Made by a program: the position numbers and the translations under genes
In this document: positions 6,391 through 63,824 of the stretch, one piece after another
Layout of the letters: every line of letters starts with the position of its first letter
How positions within the stretch are numbered: the first letter of the stretch is position 1
Origin: Chondrosia reniformis
Lineage: Eukaryota; Porifera; Demospongiae; Chondrillida; Chondrillidae
Assembly: GCA_947172415.1 (NCBI GenBank)
Contig: OX359202.1
Coordinates: 4,264,899-4,328,898, forward strand
Direction: 5' to 3'
DNA length: 64,000 nucleotides
Notes under the pieces: model-generated
The model's input: only the letters and a program-made list of their open reading frames with translations
Told to the model about the DNA's origin: nothing
The model's database searches: none

Positions 6391-6394
6391 CTTG

Positions 6395-10400: not shown

Positions 10401-13400
10401 AGTGTTCAGTTATGATTACCTCCATCATCATATCAGACACCTACTGAAGGGCAGGACCGCAGCCAGCACTTTGTATGATTCATTGGCACACACTATGTAT
10501 TCTCAGTGTTCCTTTGAAATTATTTGTCTGAGTCACCTCACAGCTCTTCATTAGTTGATAGTAGGAAGGAAATGGGCTGGATGGGTAACTGATAGTGAGA
10601 TGGTTACACAGCCAATTCAATCAGTTGCTGAAGAAGACCCCCAGGTTGAAGTGTTCAACTTCTCAAGAAGCCAAACCATGTCTCTAAATGCTCAAAAGAC
10701 TAAATATGAACTACTGTACCTATCTACTCTTCTTAGAAAAATAATGGTTAATATATATATATACGTATGTATGAGTACACTGACTCTTTTTTCCTAAACT
10801 TGAACACCAATCTGTACAGTTTTCCAGAAGAGATAATTTAGGCTACACATTTTAAATATAATTATATGCCTATGATTATAGTTGTTCATTATGCTTCATA
10901 GTATTCCTATCTATTTGGGACTACATATATATGTATATACAATAGCTACCTCCTCCTATACACCTAGACAGGAAAGAGGTAGGTAGGTACTATGGGTATA
11001 CTTCAGGGTGACTACTGTAGGTAAACAACAAAGAACTGTCCAGAAAATGAATGCTACGTACATAAATATGCCACGGTCACAAGGAGTTGTGCAAGTAGAA
11101 CTAGGTTGGAAGCAGTAAGCAACAGGTTGGTGAGGAGAATTGGATGAGTAGAGTAGTCAAAAAAGCTCTGCATGGCAGGATGAATGTTAATTTATATCAG
11201 AGGCAGAGGTCCATGAGATTTAGGACCAATTGAAAAGGAAACGATGTCATATCCAATACATCATTTTTTCACTCTAAGTCACCATCATCATTAGAACACT
11301 TCCCCGAAAAGATTCATATAACAAAAAATAGGCAGTAGAGTCTCTGTATGCTCATGGACTAATCATTTGCTACTGTTTAAAGCACATGACAAAGGACTGA
11401 CAATCCATGAACGTAAATGTCTCTCTCTGCATGTGGTTCTGTTCCCCATGCACTCGATCCTGCGCCTTTGAAGATACAAGCTTAAAACTCTACCTAAAGG
11501 GGTAATGTTTTATGGGAAGTGTGATGGGCTATGTGCATAGGCCCAGAAGACTGCTTTCTAGCCAAAAATGGATAAAGTAAAAGAAAATCTAATTATTTGT
11601 AATATATTTGGGATACATCTCTCTCTCTAAAGCTGTACTCTCCAAATGTGGGCAACAGATGCACATTTTTGGGGAATAACATGAGCTCTGTGGAGAAGGT
11701 TTTTAAGAGCAAAAATATCAATTTTATTTACTTTGTATGTATTTCTCTCTTGCCAGCTGCCGACTCCAAACTTGGCTTACAGATGTAACTTCTAGTGGAG
11801 AGAAACATAGTCTATGTATCCAAAGCCATAGGGGACTAAGAAATAAGAAAGTAATTCTGTAATCTGTCTCCATGTGGTTCTGTTTTTTGTATGGCCTCAT
11901 CTTAAGATCAATAAACTATCTGCTCTTATAATTATAGGATGCAAAGTACACATCTAGGCAGCAAATCAATATTTATCACTTCATCTCTTTCTGGGCCTCC
12001 CCTCTCGATCCTTTCCTGGCACAGTTACACTCATTACCATCTCTGTAACAGATCCCTATTTCTCCTCTACCTCCTTCATCCAGACTTCTCTCTTACTGCC
12101 ACTATCCCTACTTGCCCTAACCTCTCCTTGATGACTGTACTTCAGTGAGTTCACATGATCTATTCTCCTTACTCCTGCTATTTTCCTTAGCACTCTCATC
12201 TCCACTGCCTAAACTCTCTACTTCTCACTATCCTTCACCTTCACTCAGTTCTCTGCTCTCCAAAACAAGATTTTTCACCGCACCTTCTACACTCGGTGCT
12301 ACACCAATCCTTTCTCCAGCTCACATTCCATTTTGCCAATTCTCAACCCTTGATCTCTACATTACAATCCACCTGCTTCCTCCTAAAAATATGGTTGTCG
12401 TCTTCTCAATGTTTACACCACTTTATTGCTTTGCTAAACTCTCAAACATTGATTTGCAGGTCTTCTTTTGCCTGAGCGAGGAGGACAGTTTATAAATCAT
12501 GGTTTTCAATATGTACTGTAGATTCTAAGCATTTAATTTATGTTGCTACACATAGCTACATACTTATTGCAGTTTCATCCTTCGTATTTCTGCTGTAATG
12601 TTTTATACTGCTTGTTCCTTATACTATAATTAAGCAAATATACTTTCTCTATCCTACATAGTTATACCACCTAAAATAAGGAAAAGAGGAAAGGAGGCAG
12701 TTAGGATTGACAAGGAAACTCTTAGAGATGGGAAATCAAAGATCCCTCATGTAAAAATGGTGATTCTTGGGGAAGCACATCATGGAAAGACTAGCTTGTT
12801 GAGACTTTTGGAAAATGAAAAATTTATTTCTGACTCTTAAGTCAACAGAAGGAATAGAAACAGATTTTGTCTCCACTCAAAGTCTCAGTGACTGGACAAA
12901 GCAAAAGCCAATAACATACTCACACGCATTAGCCAAGCACGTTAAAGAAGTAGCTCCTGATTATGTTCAAGGTAGAAATAAACCAGAGACAAAGCAGAGA
13001 TCCAAGGAACAGATTGAACAGGACATTAATAATATTTTTCCCAAACCAAAGCGACCACCACCACCTCATCATCAACATCATCCAAAGATGCCTGATCCTA
13101 ATGTTGTTAATCCTACTTCCTTCAGAGAAAAAAATCAGCTTCCTACTATTCCTCCAGTAGAAACAAGAAGCTCAACTTCTAAACCAGCCCCAAGTCCTAA
13201 TCCAAAAAAGGTTAACCCAGTTCCTAAAGCTGAAAGTAGCTTACCAAAACCAGCTCCTCCACATGATGTTCCAAAGGTAAAACCAGACACCACTGCAGTA
13301 CAAACTCCAATAGCCACACTGTCAGACCCACCCAGAGATCCTGTTCCTGCAAGTGAAAGTGAGGCAGTAGTTCCAGACAAAGGTTTGGGTAGAAAGGTTC

Positions 13401-15705
13401 AGAAAGACATCAACAAAGATTTTCCTAAACTGGTTTTCACAGTTTATGACTTTGCTGGTCAAGAGTTGTATCGCCCCAAGCATCACTGCTTCATTACTCA
13501 AAGATCTGTCTTCATGATAGTGTTTAATAGCCGCATCTTCCTTGATATGCTGAATGCTAAAGACAAGGATTCTCACCGCCACATACAGTATTGGTTCAAC
13601 ACCATAAGTGCCTACACTAAGAAGTTTGAAGGAGAAAGGGGAAAGGAAAGGAAGCCGCCAGTCATCCTTGTGGGGACTCATTGTGGGCCATATGAGAAAG
13701 ATGGAGAGGCAGTGTTTGAAAGGATCTCAGAAGAGGATGAAAAAATCAAAAGAGATGAGCTTGATGCTTTTTACTTTACAGGTGATAACAGAAAGCGCTA
13801 CATTTCTCATTTTGTCAAAGGACCACTGGAGGAAAGGTTTCAATTTGTCGAATGCTCTTTAGAAAATGAAAAAGAAAGTGGAGCAGAGTCTCTGAAAAAG
13901 GTGATAGAAGAGACAGCTGATTCCCTGCCCTTCATGGATGAGGAGTATCCAATGAAATGGCTGCAATTCCAAGAGAGGTTACAAGAAGAACCCGGTCTAA
14001 GGAAACTGGAGGCAGTTGAGAAAATGGCACAGGAGCTTGGTTTAAGTAAAGAGGCAAGAGATCTTGCTCTCCCGTTCTTTCATGATATCGGTGTGATCAC
14101 AATGCCAGGTATAGACTTAATAGAATTTTTGAATTAGTTACATTCACATGCAATAAAGTAATGGAGTTGCCTTTTAATCCCATTTCTGAATTGACATTTT
14201 TGTAGAGTAATGTGTGCACTTTGCCACGGCTAAATTACATAGGATGAATGTATAATTTAAGCATACTTATATTAAATTTATTATTTTATTCAGTTATACT
14301 TTGGCTGTACCCTTCATCTGCTAATAAGGAAACCACAAGCTCTTTAGCTTTTGGGAGTATTTATTAGCAAGTTAGCCATTCATATGCCTCACTGACGAAT
14401 CCTAAAAACTAAACAGCTTAGTATGGCTCAACCATCTCTTGAGTGGCTGAGGGAGATTCTGGTTCCCATCAAGTCAACTTCGGTTCCACCCATTACCTTA
14501 TTGTGCTCCTCAGGATGGGTGGGTGGGGTGAGAATAAATGTATTCAAATCAAACTTTTCTCAATAAAGCTGAATTACCTCAAGTATTCCTGTCTGAGGAG
14601 GAAAGAGAAACCTTAGAAGAAGTAATACTTTGTGGCCCACAGCTGCTTGCTGACATTATGAAGGAACTACTTATGTTCAAAGACAAACATGTGGATAAGC
14701 TGGATATTGGTGGGTTACACTGGCTGGTCATTGTGACTGAGAGAATAGGTTAACGTTTAAGGTTGTCTTTTGTTTTCAGATGACATTAGAATGCTCACTC
14801 AAAATCACATACTGAAAAAGAAGGCACTTAGAGATATGTTGCCAGAAAGGTAGAATAAAGAGGATTTTGAGCACATCTTCCTCTTTTTGAAAGCTCATAG
14901 TTTGCTCTTTGCAATAGAAGGAGAAAGTGGGATAACTGAAAAATGGTTTGTCCCCAGTTTACTGAAACCTTTGGAAGTGAACCCAGAACTCCCGAAGCGA
15001 TACTTCACATTTTATGTTGATTTTCTTGGATACCTTCCTCCTGAGGTCTTCAACAGATTCATCTGCCTAGTGGCCCTGGAATCAGAATGTAGTCATCTCC
15101 GAAAAGGCTACAAAAAGCCACCATCCTACATTACCCTAAAGGCTGACTGCTGTGGTGTGAGAGGCTGGTGTGCAGTGAATGATGTCTGGGTGATTGTAAA
15201 GAAGGGAGAAGTAATGTCCTTATTCGTCAGGTAAGCTTTACCTACATAAACTGATTCCATTCAAGTATTAAGAAGTACTTTATCTAAGGTTTATTTAAGT
15301 AAGTGTAAATCCACGACAAATTATGTACATAATAGCATAGGAAAGGAACACTAATGCATGCATTGATGTGTATATTTATATTAAATTCAACTTTACTTGC
15401 ATCATTGATTGTTAGCAAGATGTTATGAAGTGGCCTTATACAGTCCTTCACTGCAGGTCACGAATGGAAAACATTACACTGACTACATCAAATTTGTGAC
15501 AGAGAAGTTACAAAGTCTCTTTACAGATATGAAGCTCACTGGGATATTGTATGAGGTCAAAATGGAAGCTCCCTGTTGCATGGAGGAAGGAGGGTCACTT
15601 ATATTAGCTAAGTATGTTGAAGAAGAGTTTAGCAATTGTATGGAACACTGTCAGTGTGATTCATGTGCAACTCCATGTCAGTTAGAATCATTTTTAAAAG
15701 GAAAG
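7490..15705 (+). pseudogene. Copy B: decayed ankyrin-Roc-COR gene
   Basis: Exon remnants matching copy C are 7490-7631 (frameshift, TAA at 7616), 7749-7950 (20-bp deletion, TGA at 7856), 8565-8771 (two ankyrin exons fused, donor lost), 9674-9772, 9864-9959, 10061-10205, 12662-14108 (Roc), 14584-14709, 14780-15230 and 15420-15705. In the Roc exon one extra T after GACTCT creates TAA at 12838-12840. The P-loop reads GEAHHGKTS. In the 14780 exon the Trp codon of PERW is TAG at 14851-14853. The CARD-like last exon is absent: past 15705 the sequence belongs to an EGF-like gene fragment. No equivalent of copy C's first exon was found. With at least four independent lesions this is a pseudogene, although the middle ankyrin exons and much of Roc stay open. 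Confidence 0.9.
10206..12661 (+). other. Intron between ankyrin and Roc exons of copy B
   Basis: The 2.46-kb intron corresponds to 769 bp in copy A and 10.7 kb in copy C. Its left end matches copy A intron 55-600 and its right end matches copy A near 690-823. The middle (about 10.7-12.5 kb) is extra. A short piece at 12300-12400 resembles 59400-59520 in copy C's intron. A degenerate Penelope-type motif lies near 10626. The open frames at 11939-12495 are low-complexity T/C-rich sequence and are not supported as genes. Confidence 0.6.
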
Positions 15706-45038: not shown

Positions 45039-48000
45039 ATGGCAACTCCTGTTGCCAATCCACTGCCAGAAAAGGGTGATGTTGAATTGACACAAGATCT
45101 TGTTCAGCAAGATGCCAGGCCTGATGACACACTGAGGGGGCCTATTAATTCTTCACGCTCTGGAACTAAGAAAGAGAAAGTATATACATTTTCTATATGT
45201 GTAGTTGATACTACCATACATCAATAATCAATAACTTCTCGGGAATTTAGTAAATGGAGCACATTTGTGAATGCTTTTGTCACAAACATTCTGTTGGTGT
45301 GTATGTACGTATGCTATTGCAATATTATGTATGGTGATGTCTAATAAAGATGGCAAACTCTTGTTGGTGTTAATAGTGGCCAATAACATTTGTATAGCTT
45401 ATCATTTGGCACATAATCATTGTTGCTTATATCGTATACTAGTCACCTTATGGAAAGCTGAAAGATCCAAAAAAGAAGCAGGCCCGAAAGCTTATCTTTG
45501 AATGTGCAGAGAATGAATACAAGGATGCTTTTATGAAACTGTACCAAAGGAAAGTCCCCATTAATGAGAAGATTAAGGTGTGCAAACTACAGTTAATTTT
45601 TACTAGGAATAATGTCACGCAGTAGGTACCTAATTTCGTCTCTTCCTCAATTCTATATATAGCAACAGATGTCCGCAATCCATTGCTTAGTGGAGAGGAA
45701 CCATTATGATATACTTTTGGAAGTAATCAAGCACTCTCTCTCAGAATCTCTCTCAGAAGAGAAACTAAGCAAGGACAAGTGGCTCCAGCTATTGGATAAC
45801 AAGAAGATGAGTTTTGAAGAAAAGCTGTTGAAAGTAAAGGAACTTCCAAGACCTAAGAAACTAGAGGAGATTGCTAAATATGGGACTAAGGTACACATAT
45901 GTAGTACTTGCAATAGGGCTCAGTCATCACTTTGCAATTATACACATTTTATGCATACAGGTTTTATGATATAACCACTTTTATATGTCAATATAAGCAT
46001 AATATCGGAGAGTACGTGTAGTACTCTCTAAGTAGGTATGGCCCGAAAAAACATGGTGGCCGTGATCAATGTATTACTGATTAACACCTTATAAATCGGC
46101 AGTGAATGCGTCTTTAGTTCTTTTAAACATCTAATATTTCTTTTTGTACAATGTGATTTGAAGGAATGTTGTTTTGAAGAGCGCATAAAGGCTCGAAGTT
46201 GGTAAAACAATTCCAGGTCTGCTTCGGTTTTCCTCTTCTTCTTCTTCCATTCACGCTAGTGCATAAACGCACGTATAGATGACTACATCTAAAGGGCATA
46301 TCGTTGAAAAACTTTAGGAACTAGGGAATAGGTGCGCTTCTGTTTTAAAACAATTTAAGCAGAAACAGTTACTGATAGCACGTCAGATTAGAGGAAGCTT
46401 TCTGTCGCCATTTTTTTATTAAGAGATCTCGGTTATCTCTTTGACTGCGACGTTATTTCGAATTGTTGCAAAGGAAACTTTCAAAACAAATTCTAACAAG
46501 AAGAAAAAAGAGGGAATACAAGATAAATAAAACATTTAAAAAAATGAAATTTGAAGTAGGGATGGCAGTGCTTCCAACAGTGGTTAAGTTACTTAAATTT
46601 CAGTATATATGCCACTTCTGTATGGCTATCCTTGTTTTTACTTTTTCCAGATCTGCTAGTGACATACACATCACTTCCATGTTTGGACACACCATCTATA
46701 CTTTAGCTATAGCCGATGTACCCAAGCATGGTACGTATATATTAAGGCCAAGGCCTTAATATATACGTACCATACAATACCCTTAATTGTGTGCAAGTTA
46801 CCAAATGGTCTCTAACCCAGTTGAATATGTCAATGCATGCAACCAACCATCGGTATTCCTAGCTCTCTCTCAAGGTATATCAAATCTGCTGTGGTTATTA
46901 GGTGAGACCCCTTTAAGACTGGAACGTTTGTTGATATATGGTATGCAGAGGCATCATCTTCAGTCTATACTAAGGTGTATTTGTGTGAAAATTGGTAGAT
47001 GAATGTAACCTGTAACCTATGTAAGGATCAGGGGTGGTTTCATTGATTATTTTCAGATACATTCTGCAAATAAGACATACGTACGTATATACAGAATTCA
47101 TGATCATTCACTGTAAACTGTTGCAGTGGTGAATTGTGTCCACTCACCTATTAGTGAATTCACTACTTTTAGACATGTCCAGGCCACATTTCTAGTGTTA
47201 TTAAGTGCTACTCAATTCTGAATCACTGCATTGGTTAAGTATATTTTCATATATATAATCATAATAACGCCAAGCATATGTTATGTATGTGACTGTAACT
47301 CTGACCTTAGTGATATAGCTGTGTTCACATTGACATCAGCTATTGGTTCCCACCTATTTTGTTCACAATAAAATCAATAATAGTAAAATATGACTTACCA
47401 TGTACAACCAATAGAACTCAATCCTAGACCAATGAGCTCAGCTTACGTGACTTGCTTCCTTAAAGGAGATCCCTCATCCATGCTCACCATTTGAACTATG
47501 AATCAGCCTGCAATGCAATCAAGTCCCTTCACTCAGAGCCAATGCACAAATACTAGTTATACTGAAGTGTAATTCAGCAAGTTGCAATGTACAGTGCTTG
47601 TTTGCGTATATTAATAATAGAGTGACTGTTTCACATGTGGGACTAGTATTGTTACCTAATGAGACAGGAGACAATGCAAACCAACTGTCAAATTAATTTG
47701 CATCAGTTAAATACTTACAATGCACCAAATTCTTGGCAAGATATATAGTACAATAAACTGGTTAAATACGATGTGCCAGATTGTAGTGGTTTCACTAACC
47801 ATGTGGCCATGGTACCTATATCTAGTTTATCATTCATCTCTTTGTAATCATATGCAAATGGCCTGACAGGCAATAAATAATCTTCCTGCTTCAGCCATTT
47901 TATTTATGGCGACCTACTTTCTTATCCCATTATTCCACTATCTACGTTATCAACTGTTTGTTTGCCACATCTTCACAGTTGGGTTGGAGGCCTCTCCATA

Positions 48001-51000
48001 TTGCTATCAAGAATGGATATCATGAGATGGTCCAACTCCTGCTTTTGATTCAAGGGAAGAAGGACTTTCCTGGAACAAGAAAGCGACATAGGAAGAAAGA
48101 AGGAGATAATAATAGTGAAGAAATAGTGAGATACACAGTTTTATTTGTTTGCTATAGCCTGTACTAACTTTGTCGTCCTGTTAGATAACATTATAATGTA
48201 TGCTCTTTAAATATTAACAGGCTGGTGGGATGACTCCAGTACACATTGCTGCAAGATCAGCCGATTTAGAGATACTTAAATACCTCTGGGCATGGTGTGG
48301 TATAATCCGTGAGGGAGAAGAAAACCAGTTTGGTCCTTTCTCTGAGGAAGATAATGTAAGTTTATTCAATTTTTGAATCTGTAAACTTGTAAAAGCTATG
48401 CTGTAAATATCCACAGAAAGGTTGGTGTGTTCTTCATTTTGCTATTGCTGGGGACCCAAAGAAGTTATCTATCCAAACTCAAAAAGCAGTTTTAGAATGG
48501 CTTCTAGATGATGAAAGAATGAAATGTGGTTTACATGTAGAAAAGGCATCCAAGGTAAATACATATACGTATTTCTGTACATAATCTCATTACGTATATA
48601 CATAAAAGGCAGTGACTACAGTATAAGAATAAAACAAGTACTTATATTACTATGTATATAAAGTGGATTGTTTTTACATTGTATAATACATGAAACTTTA
48701 AAATAAATGTTTGTTCACTCATCGATAGAAAGGACACACTCCCCTGATCACAGCTACTGAATACAAACAACTTGAGCTAGTTAAATTGTTGCTTGAAAAG
48801 AAAGCAAACAAAAATGCTACAGTAGATGTAAGAGTTTCCATAGAAATATCATGTAATACTGTTAAAGACTATTAAGTTGCATTTGCTATGTATATAGTAA
48901 TTTGTTTTACTATTACAGGATGGTAAAATGGCCCTACATTTCACAGCTATTCATGATTACCTTGAGATGGCTGAACTGCTGTGTGATAAAGAAGCTTGTT
49001 TAGCCACAGACAAGGTACAGAAATGGAATTACATAGAATTACTACTTTCATGCTACGTACGTACATTCATTATAACAGGGTGTCCTCTCTCTGTACTATG
49101 TTTCTGTGCTTGTAGGATAGTAATACTCCTTTGCACATTGCATCAAAGAAGCATTCTTCTGAAGTTGAAGAGTATTTGAGAAAACAATGTCCTGAAGCAG
49201 ATGATATCGAGAACAACAATGGACACACTCCGAAGACTATCCCCAAGGAAAAAGGAGAATGTAAGTGCACACATGTTGTCAATCATAAGTGTTTCTTTTA
49301 GGGGGAGGTAAGGAGCTAGGGTATTCATTCCCCATATAGTAAAATTTATTCCCCACACTTAATAACTTAAGGGCTGCTCACTTACTATATGTGACTCATA
49401 GTTGTAATTAGAATGCAAGACCCTAACGTTTCATAGTATTATTCAATAGCTAATAACTACAAAATTACTAATTTGTACGTTTTTAACTGTAAATATACCA
49501 TACTGTATGCGTACAAATTTTCCCAGGACGTAAATTTCATGATTTTCACAAATCAGCATGGGTTCATGAAAATAACAACCCGAAAAATTCCCCATACCTA
49601 GGCCTTTCTGTCGATTTCCATAAATGTGCACACTATTGAGCCACTTCGCTGTAGAAACACGGAGCAAATGCAGGATATGGTACGCGGAACGTGACCAACA
49701 GTTAGACCATCTTTCTTGACTGCCACCGAGTGAGGATCTTCCATGTTCCTAGCTTCCCGTTGGCACTGAAGAACTGCTCCTACTGAAGCCAACTAGACAT
49801 CCTTGTATACATGATACCCACGAATGCAGCTATGTAGATAAAACAAAGAGCCCGTCAGCAGTGTTCCTCCAAAGTGTCTGTAGTGAGATTATTCGGTAAA
49901 CGTCTGAGTTCTCCGGATGTTGATACCACGTGCACAAAAGGAGTCAATCTTCAGGCACACTCAGGGCTTCACGAAAAAAATTGTTAAAATCCCCACTTGA
50001 GGGGCTTTCACGAAATATACGTCCCACGAAAATTTGTATACATACTGTATTTTCCTTATAAATTTTTAATTGGCGAGGTGAATGACGGAAGATAAAAGAT
50101 GGAGGAAGTGTGATCTCCCCACCTGATCTAATCCTGAACCCAAGACTGATCTTATCCTGGTTCCTTAAGTTTGAGTTAGTTCGAGTTAGTCTGATTAGGC
50201 GAGCCTTCACCATAGTTTCATTTGGGTCAAGTCTCCAAGCTATCCCAGCCTGATTGGTACGATGAACGAGAAGCCTGCATGCACAGCATCTGTGGAACTG
50301 CCTTCACTAATGAGCATGTAGTGACGCGGGCACTCTGTAACATCTGCCTCTGTCAGATGCCCCTGAGAAAGGACGGTGCCATATACGCATGCATGGCCCA
50401 GTTGACGAGCGATGCCCAGGATCGGGCACTCTGACACTCTCACGTGACACCTCTTTTTTGAATTTTTTTAATCTTATTTAATGTGGGAAGCCTTTAGCCA
50501 AGAGGCTACTCTTCCGTGCACCCACAATAGTACAAACAACATAAACACAACATACAGTAAATCAGTCAATAATCAGTTTGTTCAATGGGCAATGTTTGTT
50601 GTCAAGGGGGTGCTGTCACTGAAAAACTGCTGCCAAGGTCTGGGCTCGAACTTGGGACATCTCATAATAGCTTGATCTTGAATTTTCTGCTTTAGCTCCA
50701 GACCACCAGCACCCCTCTTCTGTCAAGGCTCCTCCACAAACTGACAGCCAAACATCCACAGAGGATCTTTCCACACTGCCATATGTGAGGAACTTGAAGA
50801 GGCTCCCACACACCTAATGAGACCAATCGGCAAGGAAGCTGGCCACCATCCTAGATGAAGTGACATCTGCCAGCAGTGTCAACAGCTGACAATTTTCCCA
50901 GACGCTGTCTCCGCATCCCTATTAGAGGGGGTTGATGCTTGAATCTGGCTAAGCATGTCAACCATCAGCTGGCTGAGAAGAGTGACCCCACTTGTTCCCC

Positions 51001-54000
51001 TGGGTCGTAGGAAGGCCAACCCCTCCACCCGCAAGCCCCAGGAACCGCTGCAGCTGTTGGCCAAAAGGGTTTCAGAGACATTGGAGGAGCGAGACTTCAA
51101 GGGAGCTGTACGTCTAGCGTGCTCAGAGGATTCCATTGCAAGTAATAGTGAAGACACCTTAGCTGCTTTGAGATCAAAGCATCCACCCCTCCACTCTGAA
51201 TCCATACCACCTGAGGTGCCTAGGGGAAGTGCAATGACAGTTAATGAAGCAGATGTAATGTAGGCGATCCTTCCCCAAAAGCTCAGCAGGTGGCCCTGAT
51301 GGCCTTCAACCACAACATCCCCAGGACATGGTCGGGGCATCAGCAGATGCTGGGGGTGTCATGCTACTGCAATCTCTTACTGCTTTCACCAACCTTGTGC
51401 TTACAGGAGTTATCCCTGCTGAGACATGACCCTTCTTCTTTGGAGCCTCCCTCATGGCATTAAATAAGAAGGATGGAGGGGTAAGACCCATTGAGGTGGG
51501 TTGCACCCTTCAACGTCTTGTATCAAAGGTGGCCAGCAGAGCAGTCATGGAGAGAATGGGCCAGTACCTAGCACTCTTACAACTTGGCTATAGAACCCCC
51601 CTCGATGCGGAGACGACAGTCCAGATTGTATCTGCATCTTTTGCCACCTGATCATGTTCTCCTGAAACTCGATTTTAGAAATGCCTTCAATACAGTCAAA
51701 AGAGATAAGATTTTACCAGCTGTTAAAGATATGGTTACTGAAATTTTCCCCCTCATGTTTGCATCCTACTATGCACCTTCAACCCTATTCTTCCAAGACA
51801 CCACCATGCTGTCTGCTGAGGGAGTTCAGCAGGGGGACCCCTTTGGCCCGTTACTGGTCTGTCTGATGATCCACCCATTGGTACTCCAGTTGCAGTCAGA
51901 GCTTCACCTCTTGTACCTGGATGATGGCACTTTGGGTGGTCCTGAAGAGGAGGTCCTACAAGACTTTGACCATATAGCCATCCCAAGGATACTGTACTTG
52001 CTAAGGACTGCCCCATGTTTCCGATTTCCCCTTCTCAAGTCCTTTGACCTAGAGCTTTGCTCCTGCCTCAGTGCCATCCTCAATGTTGATTTGGTCGATG
52101 ATTCGGCATGGACCCAAGCAACCCTCCTAGATTGGGAGGTATTGGGGTCCGCAACACAACACAGCTTGTGCCGTCTGCCTTCCTGGCTTCTGCTGCTGGT
52201 TGCATGACCCTCATCGAACAGATCCTGCCACCTAGGCTTCATGGTACCTCCTACTCAGCAGTTGGGGAGGCTGTACAAGAGTGGAGAATGGGTCATAGTC
52301 ATTAGCCTCCAGCCTCCCCTGGAAACACCCACCAAAGGTCTTGGGACCAGCCTCGTTTCCAAGCTGCCCTTAATGTTCTCCTTGATGCCACCACCGATCC
52401 CAAGGACTGTGCAAGGCTCTTGGCAGCCTCCACAAAAGAGTGGGAGCCTGGTTGAGTGCCCCACCAATCACATCTCTGGGTCTCCACATGGATGACGAGG
52501 TGGTACGTATAGCTGTTGGGCTCCCCCTGGGTATTCCACTGAGCCACCCAATACCCATGCTGCCATTGTGGTATCCTGGTGGATGAACGGGCCACCCATG
52601 GTCTCAGCTGCTACAAAAGTGAGGGACGCCATTCCCATCATGCAACATCATCAAGTGCTCCTTGGTGGCGGTACAGATCCCCTCAGTGCTGGAACCTACA
52701 GATCTTTGCAGGTCAAATGGCAAGAGACCCGATGGTGTGACAATCATCCCCTGGAAGTCTGGCCGCACCCTTGTTTGGGACGCCGCATGCACGGATACCT
52801 TTGCTGCGTCACATCTGGCCCAAGCCATGAGGGAGGCTGGGGCTGTTGCAGCGTTGGTAGAGGAGAGGAAGAAAGCATAGTACCTTGATTTGGTCCAGAT
52901 GCACCACTTCCTGGTGGTTGTTGTGGAGATGGCCAGTGCCATGGGTAGCAATGTCCTCAATTTTTCATTGACATTGGCAGCGGTGGCCGAGGCAACGCTG
53001 CCTCAGTCCTGGGGACCTTTGGGTGACCTCCCTCCCAAAGTCCCAATTTAGTTTAGTTAAATCATTTAGCAAGTAATTGAAAGCAGTCAACAGTGAACCT
53101 GAAATTTTAAATTAACTGCATTATATTATTTTATTATTCTATTATTGTATAAAATGTTAAGCAAAGGTTCCATATAAATGTAAATGAATAACTATAAATT
53201 ATGGAAGTGTGTACATAGAATGAAAGTATACAAAATAATAAAATATATAAAATTAAATGGTCTTTCAAGTTTTATAATAATTTCTATAAAGACTTTTGTT
53301 GTTGCTGTTATGTGTTTTTTATTATGAAATACGCATTACACCTCTATAAAGTGTAGAACAATGTCCAACAGGGAACTAGGCAAAAATAGTCAAAATGGAA
53401 CAAAAATTCACATCACTAATAGTAAAGCGCTCTAAAAGCACTGAAAAACTTTCGGATATTTTAGTGCTTAATTTTTTGTTCTGTAAGTATATGTGCAAAG
53501 AACATGGACAACTAAAGGTAATATTCGATGTTCAGCCAACTTCTGTACTGATTAGACGGATGACAGTAGGTACCAGGGAGCTATACATAGACTTATTCTT
53601 AAAAAGATAAATTCCAGCCCTAGGAAATCCCCTTTTTAGACTTATATAGATATAACCATCACTAGTAACCAATTTAAAGCTAAAATCAACCTTTAAAACC
53701 TTCCTATCCTGGCAGCCACTAGTATATATATATAGCTAGTACGCTTAAGGACTGTCTTGTGTTACCCCATATACTGTGTTACTCCACCTCCAAAGAAATG
53801 TTACTACTATAAAACCTAGGGGTAGACTCATGTAATGTTCTCTATATACATGTATCTTGTATGTAATACATGTGCAGGAGTCTGTTTTGCCTGTGCAAGT
53901 CAGTTTACTAATATAATTTTATCCCAAACATAAAATTTAATTAACATTCCTTAATTAGATAGATTTCATCATGTCTCTGAATTAACACCTCTTTCAACAT

Positions 54001-54271
54001 CTAAAATTATGTACATAAGGCCCTAGATTTAGCATAGAGGGCCACAAAAGGTCAAGAAAGAGACAAAAAATCCCAGGGTCACTGATAAAGGGTGGAATTC
54101 CCAGAAATAGTTGTCTGGTCTGGTGTAGATTCCTGCATTTTCATGCAAAGCTCTCTCCGGTTTAGTTCCCTGTGGGCTTTTTAATTTATAACAGAGTAGG
54201 CATAACATGCATGTATGAAATGGTGTGCTAGATTATTCATGCATTATATATATATATATATATAACTTGTA

Positions 54272-54303
<32 letters not shown>

Positions 54304-57300
54304 CCTCCCTTGAGTCTGGGGACTACCTAACCTATATACAGTTGAGTCCAAATAAGTTGAACTTGCTTGATTCGAATTTCTGCTTAAATCAAATAATTTT
54401 ATAGTCCCCTTCCAGAATATGGACAATCACATACAAATTTCATCAGATAACTCGATTTTCAATTACTCGATTTCCGCATAACTCGAGTCAATTTACAAAC
54501 CCGCCCTCACACAAAAGTGTTAATCTTGAAGAACGACAGTTATGTCTGGTTGAAAACTTCACACTTTGCCTTTAAAGAGGAAGATCGAACTCATTGATGC
54601 TGTTGAGAAACACCCAGCTGGGGAGAAGAAGAAACGCCCAGCTGGGAAGAAGAAGAAGGAAATTGTTGAAGAATTCGGTATCGTTCCGAACACCCTTTCT
54701 ACGATTGTGAAGGACAAGGAGAAGTATCGCCAGACACTTTTTGGAGGGCAAATAAACATCAGCAAACAAAGGCAGCGGGCTCCAACCCACGATGATATCG
54801 ACGAGGCACTCTTATGCTGGGTTTCCCCTGCTCGATCGGAGAATGTACCCATCAGCGGTCCCATTCTATCTGCCAAAGCTGACTCACTTGCTGAAGTCAT
54901 TGTACACTTGCATGTGTTATTTAATATTTCTTGTGTGAATGTATTTGGTGCACCCCACATAGAGCCTATCCTAGAAATTTTGGATAAGTAGAACTTCTGA
55001 TAAATAGAAGTTTTTTATTTCCCCAAGAGATTCGACTTATCCAGACTCAACAGTATATCAGTATAACCAACCTCTGATTATTTAAGCCTCTGTAATACAT
55101 TATACTACAAAACTTACCACAACCCCGAAACTCACTACATGCATACTACCCTGTATATGTCCATGTAAGGGACTCCAAGGGGACTTCCTTGACGTATGGG
55201 GGTAGGGGCACAGACCCATGCAAACCCCAAAGGGGCCCACCCCCCTTATAATTTGAACATACAGATGTATCAGAGTGTACAGCAGTACTCTCTAAATAGG
55301 GATGGCCGAAAAATACATGGCTGTCCTATCCTATCCAATGTATTATCAATTAACACCTCGTAAATTAACAACCATAGGATTTTCGGTTGTATTCGAGTAT
55401 TTGCTGTCGTTTTTGCATGTGTGTGTGTAAATGGCAAAACATGTATCGATGCTGTACAACCTTCGCAAAATGGTTAAACCAAAATAGGCCAAATTCTGAA
55501 ATTCCTCATTTTTTCTTCTTTTTTCAAGTGCTAACATGCGAACTTACACAGGTACATACAAGTACTAAATCGTCATTAAATGTTTCCAAACTAGGGAATA
55601 GGCTACCCTAGATTTCAATGCATTCTATCCGAAGCGTGAAGGTGCCAAATAGAGGGCCTCTTCAAACGCCATTTATTAATTAAGTTTCAAATTTAAGTAA
55701 CTTGAGTTAAAAAATGGTGGTACTGTTGCCCCCACAATCAAATTACTTAGTTGCTCTGCAGGGCCTATATACAGTCGTAATCTTAACGATTATGGTCCCT
55801 TTAATATCCTAGACTGAATGTTAAAGAACGGTAGAAGACTTACTTGACAAATTTCGGGCATTTTCAGATGCCATTTAATTTTTGTTTAATCTAGAGCTCT
55901 CGATTATATCGTCTATTCTGCTACTTTATTTCGAGTTTTCGCCAAGAAAACCTTCAAAACAGATATTAACAAGAAAAAAAGGGGCAATACAAGTTAAATT
56001 AAAACATTCAAAAATGAATTTAAAAGTAGGGGTGGCACTATAACAGTGATTGGCACATCTAGAAAAAGTAATGAAACGAGACAGTGATCATATGGTAAGG
56101 CTAACATTGCAGAAGTGGCATACTGAAACTTAACTATACACATCCCTTAGTAAAGGGATTCAAATGAGTCTCAGCAACACAATTTTATCAAATTTGAACG
56201 TTTCAACCCGAAGGTCCTCATCAGCAATGAGGAGATGACTACAAACCAGGTTTAAATTGGGAAGGTGACAAGGAATGAATAATGATGTAATGCTACATAA
56301 TGAATAGAAGTAAATTACTGTGTTATTTAATAATGTCATTCCAAATTGGATCTAAATGTAATCCTGAGTCCATGTTAATACAGGGAGTCTTCTGAATCAG
56401 CATGGCTTCTTTAATCTTTCTCTTTAGTCTGTGGGTCTCCTGGGTTATGATGGTAGCTTGGTCCCATGCGATGTCGTGTGAAGTATTCATAACATGAACA
56501 GCTATAGAATTGTTTGTGTCCATTCTACACACGGACCTCTTGTGCTCCTTCACTCTTTCATTGATGGTTTTGCCTGTCTCACCGATGTATACTCCACTGC
56601 AACTACAGGGAATCTGGTATATGACACCAGTCTTCTGATAGCTGTCTAAGGGTGTCTTGACTTTAGTTAAGATTGATCTCAAGGTGTTCGTAGCTTTGTT
56701 GGCAATCCTGATATTCAATGGTTGGCAGGTTCTCTGTAAAGTTTCACTCAAGCCTTTGATATAAGGAAGACAAAGGGTCAGCTCCTCCTTATTGTTTGTT
56801 TGGCAGTCACTGCTCTTCTTTTTTCTTGTGTAATGCTTTCCTGATGAGTTTCATAGGATATCCATTAGATCTGAAGGTTGACGTGAGGTGTTCTAACTCT
56901 TCTTTAAAATATTCTCCTTTGCATACACTGATAGCTCTTTTCTTCAGACAAGTGATGATACCAATTTTGGTAGCTGGGTGATGGTTGGATGCGTAATGTA
57001 TGTAGCTGTCTGTGTGAGTGGCTTTGCGGTAAACACTGGTCTCTAATTGTTGTTCCCTCCTTCTAACCAAGACATCAAGAAAAGGTATTGACCCTTCTGA
57101 TTCCTCCTCCATGGTAAACTGGATAGATGGTCTTATTGAGTTGAGATGGTTCCAGAATGAATGCAGGTGTTTGTCCCCATGGGTCCAGATGACAAACGTG
57201 TCATCTACATACCGTAGCCATAAAGATGGTTGAAAACTACTTGTGTTAATGGCAAGATCCTCAAATATTCCATAAATAGGTTAGCTATGACAGGTGACAG

Positions 57301-60300
57301 GGGGGACCACATGGCTGCTCCTTCTGTTTGCTCATAGAAGGTATCCTCCAGTTGAAAATAGGTAGTCGTTAAGCACTTTTTGAGGAGGTCTACTATGACA
57401 CTAGGAGGAAGGTCAGTCCTATCACTGAGTGTCGAGTCATTCAGCAATCACTCATTGACCACCTCAACAGCTTCTTGAATGGGGACTTTTGTAAACAAAT
57501 TACGCACATCAAAACTAATCAACTTGCATTCTCCTTCCAATTTGATACCTGCAAGTAGTTGGACGAAATGGGAAGAGTTATGGACAGTATGTGTGGTCTT
57601 ACTGGACAAGGGGGAGAGAATTCTGGTTAATGCCTTAACTTGGAGAGTTGATATGTTGGAGAGCCAATGGAAGATACTATTGGTCTGAGAGGTCGGTTTG
57701 CTTTGTGTATTTTCGGAAGACCATAAATACGAGGGGGTTGGCAATGAGGTGGTGCTAGTCTCAATCTGGTTTGTCTATCCATCAATCCATTCTCTTCAAT
57801 AACTTTTAACTTCTGATTCAGTTCCCTCACAATTTTGGCTGTTGGGTCTTTTTTGATTCTCCTATATGAACTGTCTTTTAGAAGTTCCTCCATTTTTCTG
57901 TAGTATTCAGCAGCATCCAGAACCACAGTTGCTTTGCCTTTATCTGCAGGTATGATTTTGATGGTTGTGTCCTGTCTTAATCTTTGAACTGCTTTAATTT
58001 GTTGCCTTGTGAGGTTAGGCTTGGGTGTCCTGGAGTGTTTGAGACACCATTTGACTCTCGACTTTAGGTCTTGTGCTTTGTTTTCATCCATATTCCTTGT
58101 CAAGGCCTCAGTTTGAATGATGATGTCACTGTATGGAATGGATCTTTGAGCAACTGAATAGTTTAACCCAAAGGAGAGAACTTCTTCTTCAGCTTTATCT
58201 AGACTCCTACTGCTGTAATTGTAGATGATTGTCCTTGTATCTTTGCACTTTTGTGCTTCCAGGGTCAGTTTCTCAAATTTCTTCAGGTGCCTTTCCTTGA
58301 GAGTTTTGTGAGTTTGTTCTCTATGGTGAAGGATCCAATCTTCCATTTGTCTGAATTGTGATTGATCCAGTCTTCTGAGTAGATTTTGGTGGATTGTGGC
58401 CTTTTCCTTGGACAGCTGGGCAAGTCTGGTATGAGCTAAACTGATGCTCTCTTGGAGTAGTGAACGACTTATCTTCTGTGAGAGAAGGTGGGCATTGTGG
58501 GACTTGAGAGGTAGCTTGACTCTTAAACCTCTAGGAGTGAGACCTGAGGATTTGCATCTGGTAAGGAAAGTGATCTGGTTCCTGGTTGTGGATATCTTCT
58601 TGGTTAGATTCCTCATTTTATGGGTGGCTTTGACAGTAGCTTGCTCAGAGCGTTGAATGAAATGGTATGGATTGTTTGTTGCGATTATATTAGTAAAGTA
58701 GAAGTGATGTGTATAGTTAAGTTTCAGTATACAATGTTAGCCTTACCATATGATCACTGTCTCGTTTTGTTACTTTTTCTAGATATGCCAATCACTGTTA
58801 TAGTGCCATCCCTACTTTTGACTTCATTTTTAAATGTTTTTATTTAACTTTATTGATATAAATTATATTTATAACAGTACAATCTCTTGTAAATGAAACC
58901 TCTAAAGCAATTAGAGTCCAAGAGATGCTGTAACCTAAGAAACTATGTGAACTACGAAAACAAACTAAACAACACAATCAAATAAAGACTACACTGGGAA
59001 GACACAGCACACCACAACTGCAAGAGCTATATAGAAGCACCTGTGAACATGTCAAATTGAGGTCAATGGAGAATAATGAACTGGCATACTGAGGAGCCCA
59101 ACCAAAGGCTGCATATGAGGTCCCACCAAGCGAGATTCTGGTTAGGCTCCAGATCTCGCATTAGAGGGAATAAATGGTTCAAGAATGCCTTTCATATAGC
59201 AGTATTACTTTTATTGCATGAACGAGGTGTCCAACCAATGATTGAAAACCTCAGAATTACAGATACATCCAGTACCATGAAATGACTGCAGCAACTCTGA
59301 ACTTAATTAGTTTGTCAACTGGATAAGACACTTATTTGGGATAACATCTAGGTGGCTGGTAAGGATGTCAGTGCTCTCTGCAAGGGACAAGTGGTGTACC
59401 AATCCTTTTCTCCAGCTCACATTCCATTCTTCCATCCTCACTCAAAACCACCCCAATACGTCTGCTCTCTCACCTTTGCCAATTTCTCAGCCCTCAATCT
59501 CTACATTACCGTCCGCCTTCTTCCTCCATTATTTTCAATAATAGACTTTTACGCTTTGACTATTTATTGCAATTGACGTTGAAGTGTCTCTAATGTCTTT
59601 TAAGTGATTGACCTTTTCAAACTTATTCAAATCAGAATTTAATACTTAAACATGCATTTTATACATAATGATAGTCTGTGCTGGTTGCCCTGTGAGACAT
59701 CCACAGAACTACTGTACATATGTATACATATACTGCAAAAAGATGACTTACTTCATGTACATACGATGTATGCAATCTTCTTAAAGCTGTACAATATAGA
59801 CTAGAGACCACTTTTAATTGATTCAAAATAATATTTAGATGCTAAGCATGTAATTTATGTTTTTGCACAAAGCTACATGGTTTCATCCTGTTGTAATGTT
59901 TGTTCCTTATACTATATATAATTAAGCAAATATACTTTCTCTATTATCTTGTTCTTGTATAGTTATACCACCTGAAATAAGGAAAAGAGGAAAGGAGGCA
60001 GTTAGGATTTACAAGGAAGCCCTTAGAGATGGGAAATCAAAGATCCCTCATGTAAAAATGGTGATTCTTGGGGAAGCACGTCATGGAAAGACTAGCTTGT
60101 TGAGACTTTTGGAAAATGAAAAATTTATTTTTGACTCAAAATCAACGGAAGGAATAGAAACAGATTTAGTCTCCACTCAAAGTCTCAGTGATTGGACAAA
60201 GCAAAAGCCAATAACATACTCACATGCATTAGCCAAGCATGTTAAAGAAGTAGCTCCTGATTCTGTTCAAGGTAGAAATAAGCCAGAGACAAAGCAAAGA

Positions 60301-63300
60301 CCCAAGGAACAGATTGAACAGGAAATTAATAATATTTTTCCCAAACCAAAGCGACCGCCACCATCTTATCATCAACATCCAAAGATACCTGATCCTAATG
60401 TTGTTAATCCTGCTCCCTACACAGAAATATTTCAGCTTCCTACTCCAGTAGACACAAGAAGCTCAACTTCCAAACCAGCCCCAAATCCTGATCCAAAAAA
60501 GGTAAACCCAGTTCCTAAAACTGAAAGTAACTTACCAAAACCAGCTCTTCCACCTGATGTTCCAAAGGTAAAACCAGACAAGGACGTCTCCACTGCAGTA
60601 CAAATTCCAAAAGCCACACCATCAGACCCACCCAGAGATCCTTTTCCTGCAAGTGAAAGTGAGGCAGTAGTTCCAGACAAAGGTTTGGGTAGAAAGGTTC
60701 AGAAAGACATCAACAAAGATTTTCCTAAACTGGTTTTCACAGTTTACGACTTTGCTGGTCAAGAGTTGTATCGCCCCATGCATCACTGCTTCATTACTCA
60801 AAGATCTGTCTTCATGATAGTGTTTAATAGCCGCATCTTCCTTGATATGCTGAATGCTAAAGACAAGGATTCTCACCGCCACATACAGTATTGGTTCAAC
60901 ACCATAAGTGCCTACACTAAAAAGTTTGAGGGAGAAAGGGGAAAGGGAAGGAAGCCGCCAGTCATCCTCGTGGGGACTCATCGTGGGCCGTATGAGAAAG
61001 ATGGAGAGGCAGTGTTTGAAAGGATTTCAGAAGAGGATGAAAAAGGCATAAGAGATCAGCTTTATGATTTTTACGTTACAGGTGATAACAGAAAGCGCTA
61101 CATCTCTCATTTACTCAAAGAACCACTGAAGGAAAGGTTTCAATTTGTCGAATGCTCTTTAGAAAATGAAAAAGAGAGTGGAGCAGAGTCTCTGAAGAAG
61201 GTGATAGAAGAGACAGCCAATTCCCTGCCCTTCATGGATGAGGAGTATCCAATGAAATGGCTGCAATTCCAAGAGAGGTTACAAGAAGAACCCGGTCTAA
61301 GGAAACTGGAGGCAGTTGAGAAAATGGCACAGGGGCTTGGTTTAAGTAAAGAAGCAACAGTTCTTGCTCTCCAGTTCTTTCATGATATCGGTGTGATCAC
61401 AGTACCAGGTAAATATATAGATGCCATACAATATTATAGAATCAGTTACATACTGTAGATCTTGCCTCAGTGAATTTGACTTTCTGTGTACATATACAGT
61501 ACATTATTCTGTATGGCTTCATAGCTGACTATGTGCGTATATTGTTAACACTGGATTAATGCGTTTTCACATTCAATTGGTAGACGATTGGATTGGTTTA
61601 ACATTTTGCATTTGCAAGTATCGCTTTTCATTTGCTTTTCATTAGTCAGATGTTCAGGATTAAACAAATATTTGTAGATACATGTGTATTATAAATCACC
61701 ATCCCAAATTCTTCTAAACTTGTCTACAACACGGAGAATCTCTTTTGACAGAAAGCTATATACATTATGTAATGCTTACAGAATGCATGATATATATATA
61801 TATAAAAAATATATATATATATAGAAAAGTCTAAAACCACGTCTTCCTCCTCTTCTTCTGTGTATATATGGAATGATTCTCTTCCAATAGGAGTAGGACT
61901 TTAGTAATCTCGAATGCTATAAATGGTGTATTCTTTAGTCAGGATCGTTTTTAGATACGTACCTGTTAGATAATGTCATATAATGCATTAATTGCAACTA
62001 CAAAACATTAAACCAATCTGAATGTCTGTTAAATCAATATAAAAATCCTTAAAACCAATCAAAAATCCGTGAAACCATGCAATGTGAAAAACTGCAATAT
62101 ATGACTTTAGTTTGTAAATGTATGTGTATTCATTACTGTAAAAGAGATCACCTTTATTCAGAACCTATGACTAGTTTGACCTATCAGATAAAACAGAGAG
62201 ATTACAGTTTATGCAACCATGATCATATTTAAAACCCTTTAAATTCACTAGAGATACATGCAGATTATACTGTACTTTTTATTCAAATCAAACTTTTCTC
62301 AATAAAGCTGAATTACCTCAAGTATTCCTGTCTGAGGAGGAAAGAGAAACCTTAAAAGAAGTAGTACTTTGTGGCCCACAGCTGCTTGCTGACATTATGA
62401 AGGAACTACTTATGTTCAAAGAAAAACATGTGGATAAGCTGGATTATGGTAGGTTACACTGGCTGTCCATTGTGACTGAGAGAATATAGATCTAAGTATA
62501 AGGTTGTCCTTTCTTTTAGGTGATGCTGTACTGCTCATTCAAAATCATATTTTGAAAAAATGTGCACTTAGAGATATGTTGCCAGAAAGGTGGAGTAAAG
62601 AGGATTTTGAGCACATCTTCCTCTTTTTGAAAGCTTATAATTTACTCTTTGCAATAGAAGAAGAAAGTGGGGCAGCTGAAAAATGTCTCGTTCCCAGTTT
62701 GCTGAAACCTTTGGAAATGAACCCAGAACTCCCCAAGCGATACTTCAAATTTTATGTTAATTTTCTTGGATACCTTCCTCCTGAGGTCTTCAATAGGTTC
62801 GTCTGCTTAGCTACCCTGGAATCAGAATTTAATCATCTCCGAAAAAGCCGCAGACCACCATCCTACATTACCCTGAAGGCTGACTGCTGTGGTGTGAAAG
62901 GCTGGTGTGAAGAGAAAGATGCCTGGGTGATTGTAAAGAAGGGAGAAGGAATGTCCTTATTTGTCAGGTAAGTTTTAACTAAGCTATCTCCATTCATGTA
63001 TTAAGAAGTAATTTATCTAAGGTTTATGTTAAGTGTAAATCCAGAAATGGTGACTGTACATAATGGCATAGGAAAGGAACACTAATGCATGCATTGATGT
63101 GTACATATTAAATTGCATCATTGATTGTTAGCAAGATATTATGAAGTGGCCTTATACAGTCCTTCACTGCAGGTCACTGGAAAGCATTACACTGACTACA
63201 TCAAATTTGCGACAGAGAAGTTACAAAGTCTCTTTACAGATATGAAGCTCACTGGGATATTGTATGAGGTCGAAATGGAAGCTCCCTGTTGCATGGAGGA

Positions 63301-63824
63301 AGGAGGGTCACTTATATTGGGTGAATATGGGGAAGAAACATTCAAAGACTACATTGACCAATGCCAGTGTGATTCATGTGATGCTCCTTGTGATGTTGAA
63401 TTGCTTTTACGTAAAAAGGTGAATTAGGTGATGGGATTATAATAATTGTAGGACTTCATTGTATTTCTATATAATATAGTGTCCTCCTCCAAAGAAGAAA
63501 AAGATAGAGGTCAAGTCACCTGAGGAAATAAGGGAATTTTTGGAAGGAAAAGAGTTTTCTGATCAGCTTTTGTCCTTTTGTTGCTTCAAAGACCTACAAT
63601 CCTATTTATTTACCAATGGGGTCATTTCTAAGGAACAGATGGAGGTGATGTCTCAATGCAAGAGCACTAAAGAGGCAAATTCACAGTTATTTGAATTTCT
63701 TATTGGTGATCCATCCATCAAGAAGTTACAAAAGCTCTGTGATGTCCTTAGGGAACACAGTAAATCACATGAAAACAATCAGAAGCTAGCTGACATGATT
63801 GAAAAATTCCTTTACTACAGTTAG
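45039..63824 (+). CDS. Copy C: intact ankyrin-Roc-COR-CARD-like GTPase, about 1301 aa
   Basis: Fourteen coding exons join in phase without a stop: 45039-45179, 45443-45577, 45669-45890, 47979-48125, 48221-48355, 48417-48554, 48729-48827, 48919-49014, 49116-49260, 59963-61408, 62323-62448, 62520-62967, 63136-63418, 63480-63824. Start: the ATG at 45039 has G at -3 and +4; an AG just upstream suggests a 5' UTR intron. Residues 1-166 are Lys-rich and helical. About 167-420 hold ankyrin repeats (GWRPLHIAI, GMTPVHIAA, GHTPLITAT, GKMALHFTA, SNTPLHIAS), most one per exon. Roc: P-loop GEARHGKTS (456-464), switch I T481, DFAGQE (682-687), GTHRG (757-761, usual Asp absent); a Pro-rich insertion separates T481 and D682. 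COR-like region about 830-1187, then a Lys-rich linker and a CARD-like fold (about 1208-1301). No kinase domain. Probably a cytosolic signalling GTPase; partners unknown. Confidence 0.88.
45891..47978 (+). other. Intron 3 of copy C, repeat-rich
   Basis: The piece 46000-46700 is a dispersed element shared with 55265-56146 (gtactctctaagtagg; atggccgaaaaa). 47135-47245 is shared with 28395-28510. A palindrome lies at 46728-46773. The open frames here are not supported as genes. Confidence 0.6.
46728..46773. repeat. Perfect 22-bp palindrome with 2-base centre
   Basis: Left arm 46728-46749 (atggtacgtatatattaagg plus cc) is exactly complementary to 46752-46773. The centre is AA. It lies at the edge of the dispersed element in intron 3 of copy C. 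Confidence 0.95.
49501..50049. mobile_element. MITE in intron 9 of copy C carrying a short protein-like segment
   Basis: Ends TACTGTATGCGTACAAATTT and the complement of TACAGTATGTATACAAATTT are inverted; further in, ggacgtaaatttc pairs with gaaatatacgtcc. On the - strand, 49790-49600 reads CQREARNMEDPHSVAVKKDG and TVGHVPRTISCICSVFL, a peptide often seen in invertebrate transposon copies. It is a fragment. Confidence 0.7.
50878..53050 (+). mobile_element. LINE-type reverse transcriptase remnant in intron 9 of copy C
   Basis: The + strand carries, in several frames, KKDGGVRPIEVGCTLQRLVS, LGYRTPLDAETTVQ, DHVLLKLDFRNAFNTVKRD, GVQQGDPFGPLLVCL and LYLDDGTLGG. These are reverse-transcriptase blocks, with the YxDD motif as YLDD. 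Downstream come APPITSLGLHMDDEVV, SNGKRPDGVTIIPWKSGR and DTFAASHLAQAMREAG, the usual C-terminal part of this RT family. Frameshifts and stops occur throughout. A short related piece with CGTAFTNEH is at 50270-50434. The clade is not assigned. Non-LTR elements insert by target-primed reverse transcription; this copy is inactive. Confidence 0.75.
54245..54302. repeat. (TA)n microsatellite
   Basis: Two TA runs, about 54245-54264 and 54275-54302, are separated by acttgtactg. Confidence 0.9.
54339..55053 (+). mobile_element. Tigger/pogo-type element with CENP-B-like N-terminus
   Basis: Ends CAGTTGAGTC...ATAAGTTGAA and TTCGACTTAT...GACTCAACAG are inverted, flanked by TA (54337-54338, 55054-55055). 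Inside, 54566-54910 (+) encodes a CENP-B-type HTH start: RKIELIDAVEKHPAG, EIVEEFGIVPNTLSTIVKDK, then APTHDDIDEALLCW and NVPISGPILSAKADSLAE. The DDE domain is deleted, so it is non-autonomous. A direct repeat in its Lys-rich part (caccc/cgccc agctggg) adds extra residues. Confidence 0.85.
55265..56146. repeat. Dispersed element shared with 46000-46700; right part inverted at 58707-58850
   Basis: Left part matches 46000-46110 (gcagtactctctaaatagg). Middle matches 46480-46530 (ttaacaagaaaaaa). The last 150 bp (55992-56146) recur inverted at 58707-58850, on the other side of the Penelope-like element. Both ends of the family are unresolved. Confidence 0.7.
56150..58660 (-). mobile_element. GIY-YIG Penelope-like retroelement, nearly full length, decayed
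   Basis: The - strand codes for one protein in broken frames: 58616-57627 (helical N-terminus, IIPADKGKATVVLDAAEYY, PRIYGLPKIHK), 57744-57448 (KLISFDVRNLFTKVP), 57447-57205 (EGAAMWSPLSPVIANLFMEY), then LWLRYVDDTFVIW around 57200, 57112-56807, and 56751-56323 with VIYQIPCSCSGVYIGETGKT (GIY-YIG nuclease) ending PIWNDIIK. The RT catalytic YVDD and the GIY-YIG residues are present. Lesions are frameshifts near 57650 and 57270 and a TGA at about 57445. The 3' tail (56150-56320) includes a hammerhead-like motif. It lies in intron 9 of copy C in opposite orientation. Confidence 0.88.
56200..56224 (-). other. Hammerhead-like core motif in the Penelope 3' region
   Basis: On the - strand: CTGATGA, GGACC-TTCG-GGTT hairpin, GAAAC. 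It lies about 100 bp after the ORF end of the element. Confidence 0.45.
58851..59962 (+). other. Right end of intron 9 of copy C
   Basis: No gene seen. 59400-59520 resembles 12300-12400 in copy B's intron (ctttctccagctcacattcc). From about 59835 to 59962 the sequence matches the acceptor side of the same intron in copies A and B. The acceptor is ttgtatag at 59962. Confidence 0.6.
61790..61823. repeat. (TA)n microsatellite in COR intron of copy C
   Basis: Two TA runs are separated by AAAAA. It lies in the 61409-62322 intron. Confidence 0.85.

Follow-up and report, generated by a model that had tools for sequence, protein, structure and literature searches.

An ankyrin-Roc-COR-CARD gene predicted in a tandem array of the sponge Chondrosia reniformis, and the divergent CARD family of its C-terminus

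The window analysed here is a stretch of 64,000 nucleotides from the sponge Chondrosia reniformis (C14:4264899-4328898, in a genome of 117,379,552 bases in 15 contigs), and its subject is the gene at 45039..63824 on the forward strand, called copy C. The exon model indicates that copy C is a protein-coding gene for a predicted Roco-type GTPase in which ankyrin repeats are followed by Roc, COR and a CARD. The gene belongs to a tandem array, and its CARD to a large genomic family, some members of which adjoin NACHT (NLR-type) genes. The reading that we favour, and hold to be somewhat better than an even bet, is that copy C, one of at least four copies in a tandem array of recent origin, encodes a Roco GTPase that would signal via a CARD common to sponge NLR-type genes, a function that we infer.

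The rebuilt spliced model of copy C contains 14 exons whose 13 introns are all GT-AG and compatible in phase; it encodes 1303 residues with a single stop at the end, or 1301 if exon 3 begins 6 bases later, in agreement with the fourteen in-phase exons and about 1301 residues of a first-pass annotation made from the letters alone. Exon 1 (45039..45179) carries the start codon and a lysine-rich end, and its 3′ end aligns upstream of exon 2 of copy A through a 53-base match (E 1e-4); by eye, the short first exon of copies D and A differs from that of C and is also lysine-rich at its end. Exons 2 (45458..45577) and 3 (45663..45890) are placed by the spliced model and by comparison of the copies, and exons 4 to 9 (47979..48125, 48221..48355, 48417..48554, 48729..48827, 48919..49014 and 49116..49260, the last ending in phase 1) encode ankyrin repeats according to the spliced model and Pfam. 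Beyond intron 9 (49261..59962; 10.7 kb), exon 10 (59963..61408) encodes the Roc GTPase with a proline-rich insert and then the start of the COR region, which continues through exons 11 (62308..62448) and 12 (62520..62967), whose counterparts in copy D carry a COR-A match, and through exon 13 (63136..63418), which has no Pfam match of its own and is taken as the region's end. Exon 14 (63480..63824) encodes the CARD and the stop codon, as indicated by Pfam, a family profile and a structure model.

The domain order was examined with Pfam scans that jointly cover all 14 exons and in which matches with an E of at most 1 were considered. In the spliced N-terminal part, Ank_2 scores 112.6 bits against a cut-off of 27.3, and in exon 10 the Roc model PF08477 scores 55.3 bits against a cut-off of 27. 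COR-A (PF16095) matches copy D over the whole model (1-143/143) across exons 10-12 with 34.7 bits, just under the cut-off of 35.3; Pfam finds no COR-A match in copy C itself, and the window family is absent from the 28 matches of a genome-wide COR-A search. Moreover, a profile of the Roc exon from copies C, A and D matches 29 distinct PDB sequences at E up to 0.01: by title, 24 are LRRK2, 4 are a 'Rab family protein' or 'Leucine-rich-repeat protein', which we take to be bacterial Roco proteins, and 1 is a 'non-specific serine/threonine protein kinase'. The lack of a kinase claimed by the first-pass annotation is borne out by these scans, which yield no kinase match in any of the 14 exons; they also yield no NACHT, LRR or WD40 match in the gene, and NCBIfam returns only a sub-threshold GTPase match.

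The C-terminus had been described as a CARD-like death fold. CARD is the best Pfam match of exon 14, at 22.5 bits for the exon and 23.1 bits for the trimmed domain, under the cut-off of 23.9, with nothing matched to Death up to an E of 1. Five of the 26 members of the exon-14 CARD family match Pfam CARD at E up to 0.01, a PDB search with the family profile retrieves CARDs, and the structure model of exon 14 has a six-helix CARD fold with a broken helix 1. Overall, the initial reading of the domains as ankyrin, Roc, COR and a CARD-like tail, an arrangement unlike that of DAPK1, is supported, with Ank_2 and Roc over their cut-offs, CARD just under its cut-off and COR-A just under its cut-off in copy D.

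A tblastn search with the exons of copy C on 133.8 kb around the window finds at least four tandem copies (C, D, A and B) rather than the three previously counted, copy D lying outside the window and 23 kb upstream (C14:4232319-4241942). In copy D, exons 2-14 are intact: their AG and GT flanks are kept, their lengths change by multiples of three and there is one final stop, so that copy C is not the lone surviving member it had been thought to be. The neighbouring copies had also been called decayed, which is clearly true of copy B (7505..15705, forward strand), with its frameshifts, its internal stops and an exon 6 lacking GT-AG flanks; exons 4, 5 and 14 of this copy were not found by tblastn around the window. 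The description is not clearly true of copy A, which keeps all splice sites of exons 2-14 and has a single in-frame stop. Exon comparison places exons 10 to 14 of copy A on the forward strand at 824..2275, 2754..2894, 2961..3411, 3583..3865 (exon 13, with the stop) and 3931..4290 (exon 14, with the CARD and the stop codon), and its exons 2-9 upstream of or across the window start. A genome-wide search with the Roc exon retrieves only C, D, A and B at high identity, the next match being 28% identical. The array is a compact test case, with two intact copies (C and D) and natural broken ones (A and B). Between D and A lie two further exon-14-like (CARD-like) stretches (L012:474-800 and 6298-6858; C14:4245473-4251857), the first with in-frame stops in its matched stretch and the second 38% identical to exon 14.

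Nei-Gojobori comparisons over exons 2-14, with Fisher tests on rounded counts, indicate how the copies have diverged. Copies C and D are separated by 113.2 synonymous and 225.8 non-synonymous differences (pS 0.146 vs pN 0.076, p 6e-9; dN/dS 0.49), and pS likewise exceeds pN between C and A (dN/dS 0.44, p 4e-10) and between A and D (dN/dS 0.485, p 1e-6). In aggregate, the protein has been under past constraint; the test does not single out copy C, because A and D show the same ratio in spite of the stop in A. In its CARD exon, copy C stands unusually far from the other two, with a dS of 0.47 to D and 0.61 to A, and this exon may therefore have been exchanged or converted; between A and D the same exon has a dS of 0.05 and a dN/dS of 1.27 from few changes.

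The CARD of exon 14 belongs to a family distributed across the genome; the counts of its members and of NACHT places are lower bounds, only part of the candidates having been scored. The exon-14 query identifies at least 150 places, none with an E above 1.4e-7, from 386 candidates of which 150 were scored; the Pfam CARD model identifies 25 places, none in common with the 150. NACHT occurs at no fewer than 101 places. For 21 of the 150 CARD-like places, 20 of which are on contig C7, the NACHT list has a same-strand match no more than 5 kb downstream, and no entry of the NACHT list lies within 5 kb upstream or on the other strand. When the CARD places were shifted by 20-200 kb in 2000 rounds, the number of NACHT neighbours averaged 4.4 and reached a maximum of 12, compared with 21 observed; these counts are descriptive, because tandem copies are not independent. 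One more CARD-NACHT neighbour, at L024, falls outside the NACHT list.

Twenty regions of 10 kb around CARD-like places (L016-L035), forming 19 loci as L033 and L034 join, were read for their gene neighbourhoods; they were picked from the top of the list with a few chosen by hand, and not at random, and together with the window array they cover 25 of the 150 places at a 1.5 kb margin. The link between a CARD and its partner is same-strand proximity, except in L030 and L031, where ankyrin, a Roc-like GTPase and a CARD share a single intron-free open frame. The CARD lies beside Roc-like GTPase frames in nine of the 19 loci (L019, L021, L023, L025, L028, L030, L031, L033/34 and L035), where the Pfam Roc and COR-A matches are all below their cut-offs (best Roc 23.0 of 27, in L031; best COR-A 26.7 of 35.3, in L035). 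Among these loci, L025, itself unscanned, is taken as Roc-like by its 99% identity to L021; L028 has a visible G3 and G4 motif, no visible G1 and no Pfam match; and an alignment of the L021 type finds one weak Roco match in PDB. The COR region of L030 and L031 is placed by eye, with no Pfam match at E up to 0.5, and their GTPase region has no PDB match up to E 0.1. Elsewhere the CARD lies beside NACHT (L024 and L032), Kelch (L016 and L020), ankyrin without a detected GTPase (L027 and L029), or a receptor-like gene and a paracaspase (L018); one scanned frame each in L022 and L026 gave nothing clear, and L017 has no scanned frame.

Of 19 caspase matches, three have a CARD-like place no more than 10 kb away: one is on the opposite strand, and the other two belong to the paracaspase gene of L018 (C13:342300-352299). 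That gene, on the minus strand from 4200 to 627, is MALT1-like with two Ig frames and a hint of a Death domain; for each of its two caspase-like pieces, all ten listed PDB matches are MALT1 (best E 1.9e-16 and 2e-5). Directly upstream on the same strand, from 8492 to 4884, a hydrophobic start and a transmembrane-like stretch, both recognised by eye, precede a CARD-like exon that shares 44% identity with the CARD exon of copy C, and these frames may form one gene. In the portion of the literature available, type 1 paracaspases, with death and Ig domains, are placed before the bilaterian-cnidarian ancestor, and sponges are named for type 2 paracaspases, without death and Ig domains (PMC5978004).

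In its Roc exon, copy C has the G1 motif GEARHGKT (residues 453-460), a switch-I-like STEGIE (residues 477-482) and the G3 motif DFAGQ, contained in VYDFAGQ at residue 677, with a proline-rich insert of 194 residues and 36 prolines between STEGIE and VYDFAGQ. The gap from G1 to G3 is also long in L019, L021 and L033 (164-175 residues) and is short in L030 and L031 (56 and 57 residues). At the position that we take to be G4, copies C, A and D have THRG and copy B has THCG, so that the aspartate of THxD is missing in all four; the motif is intact elsewhere, as THKD in L028 and THLD in L033. Among the copies read, the loss of this aspartate is a mark of the window family.

The favoured reading proposes that the ankyrin repeats would bind a ligand or partner and that the nucleotide state of Roc-COR, a proposed nucleotide-dependent dimerisation device in Roco proteins, would control whether the C-terminal CARD is free. 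A freed CARD could then seed homotypic assembly with other CARDs of the same family, and those at the N-terminal side of NACHT genes would link the protein to innate-immune or cell-death signalling. A danger-sensing or cell-death role for the copy C protein is plausible, and has a better foundation than the letters alone could give it, because in this genome relatives of its CARD occur N-terminal to NACHT genes; the gene probably belongs to an extensive innate-immunity repertoire that has received little study.

A wider proposal, which we regard as possible but doubtful, is that this sponge has, alongside the NLRs, a second class of intracellular immune sensors made up of Roco GTPases, and that its Roc-COR-like and NACHT genes share one divergent CARD family, unseen by the standard CARD model, as a signalling currency, with a MALT1-like paracaspase among the possible outputs. 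A search with the L035 frame gave 96 rows, 19 of which were dropped as second pieces of the same frames, leaving at least 77 main genome places of one subfamily (77 of 203 candidates scored), 71 of them on contig C2 and mostly at 0.6-3.55 Mb. Some of these frames carry stops, and the label 'Roc-COR' rests on sub-threshold matches in the right order, because those COR-A scores that are listed fall between 25 and 30 bits, against a cut-off of 35.3. Among the 150 CARD-like places, five lie within 10 kb of these frames with the GTPase downstream and four with it upstream, one being in both counts; such a low number argues against a tight link between the C2 array and the exon-14 CARD branch. By comparison, at most 47 ROCO genes are reported for one brown-algal species, and the accessible part of the source describes brown algae as richer in such genes than other organisms on record (PMC11378527). 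Further, four frames of 1217-1319 residues at C14:5.58, 5.71, 5.98 and 6.30 Mb have Roc and COR-A matches over the cut-offs and form a separate Roco group.

Weighing against the favoured reading are the loss of the G4 aspartate, without which the nucleotide specificity of the Roc domain is doubtful, and the 10.7 kb of intron 9, with transposon remains inside. Because C, A and D carry THRG rather than THxD, their switch may be a poor binder of guanine or act as a scaffold. The loss would suit an ordinary, fast-turnover tandem family with no special immune role, namely an LRRK-like scaffold or trafficking Roco with a CARD for self-association only, which we consider unlikely; the array does consist of tandem copies, one of them decayed, and Roco proteins are also tied to trafficking and the cytoskeleton in the available text of PMC4104024. 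However, this CARD is one of at least 150 modules, some adjoining NACHT and other receptor-like genes. Birth-and-death turnover is, moreover, itself typical of immune arrays.

That copy C is a true DAPK1 relative after kinase loss is quite improbable. The order ankyrin, Roc, COR and death fold does match the non-kinase part of DAPK1, but the tail is a CARD and not a Death domain, for which this candidate was rejected, and no kinase exon was found by Pfam over all 14 exons. The Roc matches in PDB are LRRK2 and presumed bacterial Roco proteins, a weak point as the DAPK1 Roc is perhaps not in PDB. DAPK1 has a death domain and lacks LRR, as far as the consulted part of its source describes it (PMC6337361).

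Least probable of all is the misjoining of two neighbouring genes, an ankyrin gene (exons 1-9) and a Roc-COR-CARD gene (exons 10-14), across the long, transposon-bearing intron 9, which was rejected because the ankyrin exons lie 5′ of the Roc exons in the same order in all four copies, more closely spaced in D, A and B than in C, the exon 2-14 junctions are all in phase in C, A and D, with phase 1 and the GT-AG sites of the 9/10 junction kept in all three, the COR-A match of D spans exons 10-12, and L030 and L031 unite ankyrin, CARD and a Roc-like GTPase in intron-free open frames. Pfam matches in intron 9 of copy C (region 50943-58736) include a reverse transcriptase (51572-52204) and a CENP-B/Tc5-type DNA-binding domain (54554-54988); a minus-strand frame there, recognised by eye as GIY-YIG-like and as part of a Penelope-type element, has no Pfam match. 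Upstream of copy C, also on the minus strand, a match to the helix-turn-helix of a DDE transposase and a THAP match close to its threshold (41232-41531 and 42386-42610) are probably remains of a DNA transposon.

The CARD family of copy C bears on how sponge immunity is surveyed. In a Dysidea avara survey, as far as its available text goes, 7 of the 11 sponge genomes lack the category of CARD-bearing NLRs (PMC12909245). Counts of sponge CARD proteins depend on domain models such as that of Pfam. If the CARD family described here is general in sponges, the notion that CARD receptors play only a small part in sponge immunity would have to be revised, and Roc-COR GTPases would stand with NACHT ATPases among the switches that drive signalling through death folds.

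Among known systems, DAPK1 shares the order ankyrin, Roc, COR and death fold with copy C, but carries an N-terminal kinase as well as a Death domain, where copy C has no kinase and a CARD. LRRK1 and LRRK2 resemble it in their Roc domain, that of LRRK2 being matched in PDB, and in their upstream ankyrin repeats; unlike them, copy C has no Pfam match to LRR, kinase or WD40. Sponge NLRs, as described in the accessible text of PMC12909245, are comparable in that relatives of the copy C CARD flank NACHT genes on their N-terminal side in the Chondrosia genome, whereas copy C has no NACHT match, a Roc GTPase as its switch and a C-terminal CARD. The brown-algal ROCO families are likewise large, lineage-specific expansions proposed to be immune receptors, but are given in the part of the source available as LRR-Roc-COR only, with no CARD (PMC11378527). 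The Amphimedon expansion of the death superfamily and TRADD-N is a similar sponge-specific mixing of death folds with ankyrin and other modules; it differs in being TRADD-N based, with N-terminal death folds and, in the available excerpts, no Roc-COR among the named partners (PMC8195603). Partial texts also describe sea anemone proteins in which Roc-COR is combined either with LRR and TIR domains or with kinase, death and TIR domains (PMC5094078), and Toll-like and MyD88-like proteins of Aplysia that contain Roco domains (PMC9334734).

Among the matches listed, no sponge ankyrin-Roc-COR-CARD protein was found in the open-licence literature, and Roco proteins with CARD or death domains have already been described in Trichoplax adhaerens; copy C is therefore a variant within a known Roco-CARD kind. 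As in Chondrosia, Roc-COR in this early animal is joined to CARD or death domains in a multigene family, of at least 17 members, according to the available portion of PMC4104024. The Trichoplax partners named there are TPR, LRR, AAA, CARD and death, and not ankyrin with CARD, and the Chondrosia CARD differs further in that it also adjoins NACHT genes.

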